In this document: piece by piece, positions 40,801-41,643 of the stretch
Position numbering within the stretch: position 1 is the stretch's first letter
Layout of the letters: each line of letters opens with the position of its first letter
Assembly: GCA_944319885.1 (NCBI GenBank)
Contig: CALUFC010000001.1
Location: forward strand, 372,001-436,000
DNA: 64,000 bases
Source of the DNA: an uncultured Coriobacteriaceae bacterium
GTDB taxonomy: Bacteria > Actinomycetota > Coriobacteriia > Coriobacteriales > Coriobacteriaceae
Direction of reading: 5' to 3'
Made by a program: the position numbers and the translations under genes
Notes under the pieces: generated by a model
What the model saw: the letters and a program-made list of their open reading frames with translations, nothing else
Database searches by the model: none
Told to the model about the DNA's origin: nothing

Positions 40801-41643
40801 TTAGCGTGATGGCGCAGCAGCGCGAATCGTCTCGATGACGCGGTCCATCGTCTCATCGATCCTATCGCGCTTGAGTTCGCACTCCCAGATGGTGATCGGC
40901 GTCCAACCGGCTTGCTTCAGCTCAGCGGTGGCGCGCGCGTCGCGCTCCACGTTGCGGCGGAACTTCGCCTCCCAAAACTCGGTGTTGCGCTTGGGCACCG
41001 AGGGCTTGCACGTGGGGCAGCGATGCCAGAAGCATCCGTTGACAAAAATGGCGATCTTGCGGCCGGGGAAGGCGATGTCGGGCCTACCGGGCGCCTTCTT
41101 CCATTGCAGGCGGTACCCGGTGAGGCCGGCCGCGCGCAGGCGCTGGCGAACAAGCAGCTCGGGCTTTGTGTTCGCGCGTTTGTTGCCCTGCATGGAGCGC
41201 CGGCTGTCGCGTCGCCGCTTTACAAGCTTCGCCTCGGCCTCATGGTCGTGCGTGTCTCCCAGAGCGCGAATGAGATCCTGATCGGCCGGCATCCAGCTCA
41301 GCTCGGCTAGGCTTCGCCGCGATATCCAGCGAATATCGAGCTGACGGTCCGACCGTGTGGGCTCGCCCGATTCGATATCGCATAGAAAGCATTCCATCGA
41401 GAGGTGGAACTCGGGATAGTCGTATTCAACGGTATAGAAGTCGCGGAGATTGCACACGCGCACATCGAGCTCCTCGACAAGCTCGCGCCGACAAGCTTCC
41501 TCGGGCGTCTCGCCGCGCTCGACCTTGCCGCCGGGAAACTCCCAGAGCCCCTTCATGTCGCCGTACCCGCGCTGCACGGCGAGCACGTTGTCGCTGTTGT
41601 CGTTTGCGCGCACGATACCTGCTGCAACGCGAACCGTCTTCAT
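40801..41643 (-). CDS. Nudix hydrolase - Vsr mismatch endonuclease fusion
   Basis: One uninterrupted 280-residue frame from ATG 41643 with GGAAGGGA upstream. Residues 1-128 are a MutT/NudG-like Nudix domain: the box starts at G39 and shows E45, R53, E54, E57 and E58, with Asp60 where Gly is usual. Residues 150-280 are a Vsr endonuclease: NTKPELLVRQRLRAAGL, GRPDIAFP (catalytic D190), NGCFWHRCPTC (zinc ligands about C204, C209, C212), TEFWEAKFRRNVERD and WECEL. Vsr nicks at T:G mismatches made by 5-methylcytosine deamination; NudG-type enzymes clear damaged or methylated cytidine nucleotides. Joining the two would couple pool sanitation to mismatch repair. No cytosine methyltransferase gene is in the window. 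Vsr normally stands alone, so the fusion is unusual. Confidence 0.9.
   Translation of the reverse strand: MKTVRVAAGIVRANDNSDNVLAVQRGYGDMKGLWEFPGGKVERGETPEEACRRELVEELDVRVCNLRDFYTVEYDYPEFHLSMECFLCDIESGEPTRSDRQLDIRWISRRSLAELSWMPADQDLIRALGDTHDHEAEAKLVKRRRDSRRSMQGNKRANTKPELLVRQRLRAAGLTGYRLQWKKAPGRPDIAFPGRKIAIFVNGCFWHRCPTCKPSVPKRNTEFWEAKFRRNVERDARATAELKQAGWTPITIWECELKRDRIDETMDRVIETIRAAAPSR

Follow-up and report, generated by a model that had tools for sequence, protein, structure and literature searches.

The window analysed here, a stretch of 64,000 nucleotides from an uncultured Coriobacteriaceae bacterium, carries on its minus strand a gene whose 280-residue product joins a Nudix domain of the MutT type to a Vsr endonuclease domain in a single chain. 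This single-chain fusion is real. Its gene belongs to the core genome, occupies a fixed site on the chromosome and is passed on vertically, which sets it apart from mobile restriction cassettes. We give about an even chance to the reading that, as part of the Coriobacteriaceae core genome, it encodes an enzyme with two activities that both serve mutation avoidance and that would depend little on methylation by the cell itself. The elements of the locus are as follows.

40801..41643, minus strand: Nudix-Vsr fusion gene, 280 aa, start ATG at 41643..41641; the single frame is kept in relatives.
41260..41643, minus strand: MutT-type Nudix domain, residues 1-128, assigned by Pfam NUDIX and NUDIX_4, PDB relatives and Foldseek.
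41461..41529, minus strand: Nudix box, residues 39-61 (G39, E45, R53, E54, E57, E58), identical in 32/32 fused relatives.
41206..41259, minus strand: inter-domain linker, residues ~129-146, corresponding to a gap of 14-90 residues of variable sequence in relatives.
40801..41205, minus strand: Vsr domain, residues ~147-280, assigned by Pfam Vsr, TIGR00632 and E. coli Vsr 1cw0.
41017..41040, minus strand: Vsr motif NGCFWHRC, residues 202-209 (intercalating F/W, catalytic H207); G, C, W and H in 32/32 and F in 31/32 relatives.
41077..41079, minus strand: catalytic Asp of Vsr, D189, invariant in 18/18 sequences of alignment A1 and aligned to PGRPD of E. coli Vsr.
41649..41657, minus strand: Shine-Dalgarno-like sequence GAGGAAGGG upstream of the ATG of the fusion gene.
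41933..45041, plus strand: pair of genes for an ABC ATPase and an FtsX-type permease, a syntenic marker of the fusion locus in the 15-kb loci of 16/18 fused relatives.

The first-pass annotation had placed the two domains on one chain without giving a strand. Both domains were matched in one frame of 280 codons, which runs on the minus strand; the plus strand of the region 40801-41643 is interrupted by stops. The Pfam NUDIX profile matched residues 5-126 of the protein (E 2e-20) and the Pfam Vsr profile residues 148-208 (E 1.1e-18; 67.2 bits against a cut-off of 27), and the score obtained with the TIGR00632 vsr model, 112.6 bits, exceeded its curated cut-off of 97.85. Judged by these sequence scores, the two domain matches are far above chance. 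PDB relatives of the Nudix part are the MutT-like proteins 3gwy, 3r03 and 3hhj and E. coli MutT (1mut), and the Vsr part is related to E. coli Vsr (1cw0, E 2.7e-20). An AlphaFold model built from 18 homologues displayed two confident domains (mean pLDDT 86, pTM 0.60) and a weak spot at residues 154-157 (pLDDT <50), and the top ranks obtained with Foldseek were occupied by MutT-type Nudix structures, including that of M. smegmatis MutT2 with 5mdCTP (5zro). No consistent LexA/SOS box was found upstream of the fusion gene.

Both active sites are complete. The Nudix-box residues E45, R53, E54, E57 and E58 are present as previously claimed, and the catalytic residues of the box are kept in all 32 aligned fused proteins; compared with the consensus GX5EX7REUXEEXGU, the near-terminal G alone is replaced. 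The Vsr domain had been described as complete, with D190 as its catalytic Asp. The catalytic set is indeed intact, but the Asp is D189: residues E162, D189, F205, W206, H207 and W224, together with the probable zinc ligands, align to 1cw0 and vary little or not at all among 32 relatives. Both catalytic sets are kept throughout the 32 aligned fused proteins. Based on the curated cut-off and the conserved residues we assign the C-terminal domain as a Vsr endonuclease, and nicking at T:G mismatches is predicted for it. The Nudix domain missed the equivalog cut-off for MutT (8-oxo-dGTPase; 93.6 against 97.9 bits), one relative (L092) scoring 111.3 bits on this model, and it also missed that for NudG/Orf135 (57.7 against 156 bits). 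Residue 121 of the fusion is an Asp, at the position where E. coli MutT has Asn119, the residue that bonds 8-oxoguanine. This Asp is common to nearly all relatives, standalone MutT types included, and because it is nearly universal it constitutes no specific signature and does not distinguish between 8-oxo-dGTP and cytidine substrates. Two other identities were rejected: the families matched by the protein include neither an HhH-GPD glycosylase domain, as in MutY (the catalytic Nudix residues are moreover intact), nor PF01939, as in NucS/EndoMS.

The fusion is present in one stop-free open frame in 62 of 67 Coriobacteriaceae species, and is also carried by named Collinsella isolates. Since these 62 species keep both domains in one open frame the fusion is not an assembly error; it thereby withstands the proposed refutation by sequencing errors or by stops separating the domains. 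The linker varies between 14 and 90 residues among relatives and is poorly conserved in sequence. With or without the fusion, Vsr is found in 66/67 species, four of which, all of one genus, have only a standalone Vsr. At E 1e-38 one species of the 67, G418, matched neither domain; its genome is a single contig of 1.7 Mb. Vsr is single-copy in the 37/37 family genomes tested, and the source genome (99.8% complete) contains no second one. Among 198 evenly drawn Actinomycetota the fusion is restricted to Coriobacteriaceae. Vsr is absent from 14 of the 23 other Coriobacteriales genomes sampled, so that the order can live without it.

The chromosomal position of the gene is also conserved. Of 18 fused relatives, 16 have the same ABC ATPase/permease pair next to it, and htpG often flanks it on the opposite side; this neighbourhood was not found in two genomes with a standalone Vsr. 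Among the matches listed, none of those to phages, viruses or genuine plasmids was a full fusion. The sole full-length match in the plasmid collection, NZ_OY725717.1, is an 899,693-base Collinsella aerofaciens record of the same size as contig C6 of genome G033, and is apparently a chromosomal contig that was placed among plasmids. A 52-residue open reading frame (41765-41923, plus strand) with one apparent membrane-spanning stretch (MVKNNPYDNIREQEQRN...) separates the fusion gene from the ABC pair; matches of 52-92% identity to it occur in 15/20 relatives, mostly beside the ABC pair.

It had been noted from the window that no dcm-like methyltransferase is nearby, and this is true genome-wide: the 99.8%-complete source genome gave 0 matches to the C5-methyltransferase family PF00145, compared with matches in 10 of 14 control genomes. 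The source genome accordingly lacks the combination of Vsr and cognate C5-methyltransferase that makes up a VSP repair system. Within the family, 27 of 37 genomes possess a C5-methyltransferase, at scattered places, whereas Vsr is present in all 37; ten Vsr-bearing genomes, that of the source and nine others, are without one, and the loci screened revealed none in the vicinity of the fused gene. The dN/dS values between the source genome (G000) and its sister species (G003), neither of which has a C5-methyltransferase, were 0.051 for the Nudix and 0.052 for the Vsr domain, and those of Vsr in pairs with methyltransferases were similar (0.07-0.14). By these comparisons both domains are under purifying selection, which for Vsr is strong between the two methyltransferase-free sister genomes. 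A different pattern, the customary association, was observed outside the family, where a methyltransferase is present in 6/9 genomes with Vsr and in 2/14 without (Fisher p 0.023); in other Coriobacteriia the two genes are adjacent at loci L023, L030, L031 and L039. Since Vsr in Coriobacteriaceae is constant and selected without a methyltransferase, and the association is seen outside the family, we conclude that it is decoupled from methylation in this family.

These results bear directly on the idea that the fusion serves classic VSP repair, in which Vsr would repair the T:G mismatches resulting from deaminated 5-methylcytosine, made by changing, acquired methyltransferases, and the Nudix domain would remove recycled 5-methyl-dCTP. 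In line with it are the presence of at least one C5-methyltransferase in 27/37 family genomes, the Asp at residue 121 in place of Asn119 of E. coli MutT, and the co-occurrence and adjacency of Vsr and methyltransferase genes outside the family. However, Vsr is kept and selected in the source genome and nine other family genomes without a methyltransferase, the loci screened show none close to the fused gene, and Asp121 is shared by nearly all relatives, standalone MutT types too. We therefore consider this explanation possible but doubtful for the family as a whole, although classic VSP repair may still operate in its methyltransferase-positive members. The proposal of the first-pass annotation that the protein is dedicated to cytosine-methylation maintenance is not supported, given a genome devoid of C5-methyltransferases, the 27/37 against 37/37 distribution, selection in the absence of a methyltransferase and a fixed locus with none nearby; the link between the fusion and cytosine methylation is weak, and that interpretation as a whole is partly supported.

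According to Castaneda-Garcia 2017 (PMC5290159), all analysed Coriobacteriia are without NucS and MutS-MutL, and additional pathways cannot be discarded. In our search MutS was above cut-off in none of 40 relatives, and NucS was absent from the source genome; a few relatives gave NucS matches of 20-27 bits, which were short and partial and were not counted as true NucS. Many other Coriobacteriales have neither Vsr nor known mismatch-repair systems. On this background, and from the features of the two domains, the mutation-avoidance enzyme that we favour would act as follows. The N-terminal MutT/NudG/MutT2-type Nudix domain would hydrolyse damaged or modified (d)NTPs before they are used by polymerase, candidate substrates being 8-oxo-dGTP, 5-hydroxy-dCTP and 5-methyl-dCTP. 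The C-terminal Vsr domain would nick the T strand at T:G mismatches, after which DNA polymerase I would replace T with C; it probably acts on T:G in many sequence contexts, on replication as well as deamination errors, beyond one methylated motif. In a lineage that has neither MutSL nor NucS, mutation would thus be reduced at two stages, ahead of incorporation and following it, and the enzyme would cover part of the work that those two systems do elsewhere. It cannot fully replace either of them, because Vsr handles T:G only. In favour of this reading we count the distribution of the fusion (62/67 species) and of Vsr (66/67), the invariant catalytic residues, the selection seen without a methyltransferase, the conserved locus, the missing MutS and NucS, the precedents of V.NgoAXIII and Caulobacter VsrA, the 27/33 fused genomes in which no other close MutT-type Nudix was found, and the pairing in some Bacteroidales with a separately derived Vsr. 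Counted against it are the 14/23 Coriobacteriales without Vsr, the unmatched species G418, the 27/37 family genomes with a C5-methyltransferase and the co-occurrence outside the family. A stronger form of it, in which the fusion would be a principal mismatch-correction nuclease of the family, combining methylation-independent T:G repair with nucleotide-pool sanitation as a further kind of prokaryotic mismatch repair, seems to us rather unlikely.

Several known systems resemble parts of the fusion. Its Vsr domain shares with E. coli Vsr V.EcoKDcm (1cw0; PF03852, TIGR00632) a PD-(D/E)XK-type fold, as predicted by sequence, the catalytic Asp and the FWH and WEC motifs, but sits behind a Nudix domain, has no C5-methyltransferase partner and has probable zinc ligands of the CxxC type (HxC in E. 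coli). The MutT, NudG/Orf135 and mycobacterial MutT2 enzymes, which provide the best PDB and Foldseek matches, have the same fold and a complete Nudix box; the fusion differs from them by Asp121 in place of Asn119 of E. coli MutT, by NCBIfam equivalog scores below cut-off and by the attached DNA endonuclease. NucS/EndoMS is comparable in the proposed role only, namely the cutting of DNA at mismatches in a lineage of Actinobacteria that has no MutSL; it is unrelated in sequence, absent from Coriobacteriaceae, and cuts both strands. For V.NgoAXIII of the gonococcus, cutting at T:G is independent of the nucleotide context (PMC6116569), and this action without one fixed motif, likened here by description only, is the behaviour proposed for the fusion; V.NgoAXIII is however a standalone protein of a host that has MutS and MutL. 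The gene for VsrA of Caulobacter, a Vsr-type protein, lies apart from all methyltransferase genes (PMC12907096), as the fusion gene does here, but VsrA is of the DUF559 type and still has a solitary methyltransferase as its functional partner.

We found no description of a Nudix/MutT-Vsr fusion in the published literature, and this conserved domain fusion is apparently undescribed. The public record of a Collinsella copy is annotated simply as Vsr, an annotation that hides the joining of the two domains. The fusion is a testable candidate for how Coriobacteriaceae gut bacteria limit mutations: its near-universal, single-copy T:G endonuclease, kept regardless of methylation, is a concrete gene for study in a lineage without known mismatch repair, and interest would be high if it proves to correct mismatches independently of methylation. 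If our reading is true, one chain would unite the prevention of mutations (pool cleaning) and their correction (nicking), and Bacteroidales would show a comparable pairing.

It may also be that the fusion is passive, two independent housekeeping activities sharing one promoter and one chain but functionally uncoupled. The long, variable and apparently disordered linker (14-90 aa) would fit such an arrangement, as would the pTM of 0.60 combined with confident separate domains, which suggests that there is no fixed interface. However, of the family lineages sampled, one genus and one species alone are without the fusion, and Bacteroidales have evolved a comparable combination that uses another Vsr; passive joining is in our view improbable. 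In repair enzymes an attached Nudix domain may lack catalysis, as the MutT-like domain of MutY does, and this precedent together with the Pfam NUDIX_4 match would be compatible with a regulatory or lesion-reading module that guides Vsr without hydrolysis; a pure reader is expected to lose its catalytic Nudix box, which is complete in 32/32, and we regard this as very unlikely. An anti-phage nicking or defence protein, suggested by PADLOC matches to PDC-S07 (Nudix, E 5e-39) and to a "Type II nicking endonuclease" (Vsr, E 1e-19), is hardly credible given the vertical inheritance at a fixed locus, the lack of a full fusion among the phage, viral and true plasmid matches listed, and the unspecific PDC-S07 model, which matches the standalone MutT paralog and every MutT-type protein tried equally well and was for this reason rejected as a sign of defence; a restriction-modification or defence cassette was rejected because of the fixed syntenic locus in Coriobacteriaceae.

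In phylogenetic trees the Nudix domains of the fusions group together (one clade, support 100) among standalone MutT paralogs of the same class, and so do their Vsr domains (one clade, support 97), beside standalone Vsr of Eggerthellaceae and far from Vsr of Bacteroidales. A close MutT-type Nudix paralog is present in 6 of 33 fused genomes, and no other was found in the remaining 27; the source genome itself encodes a standalone one (G000:C12:47054-47428, L211) that is ~50% identical to the fused domain. Some Bacteroidales pair genes for a MutT-type Nudix protein and Vsr side by side or overlapping, in either order, with Nudix first at locus L011 and Vsr first at L047, L063, L065, L068, L070 and L081. 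A common origin of the fused or paired Vsr of Coriobacteria and Bacteroidales was rejected (AU p 3e-7); for the Nudix domains the tree agrees with a common origin and the test was not significant (p 0.25). Adjacency in 12/12 Bacteroidales loci was discarded as an artefact of ascertainment, because the search for the Vsr pattern FVNGCFWH had led to all 12. Among Prevotellaceae sampled by another route, Vsr was within 1.5 kb of the Nudix gene only in G071, the genome at the centre of the sample, and in G065. Adjacency in Bacteroidales exceeds a rough chance expectation of ~0.5-1.25 cases within 2.5 kb, based on assumed genome numbers, yet is uncommon. The genome of an uncultured Prevotella, in which no C5-methyltransferase match was found, contains a Nudix-Vsr single frame (L010:6001-6918), both domains of which group with Bacteroidales proteins. 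At three of the paired loci (L011, L068 and L070) C5-methyltransferases are located upstream of the Vsr/Nudix pair.
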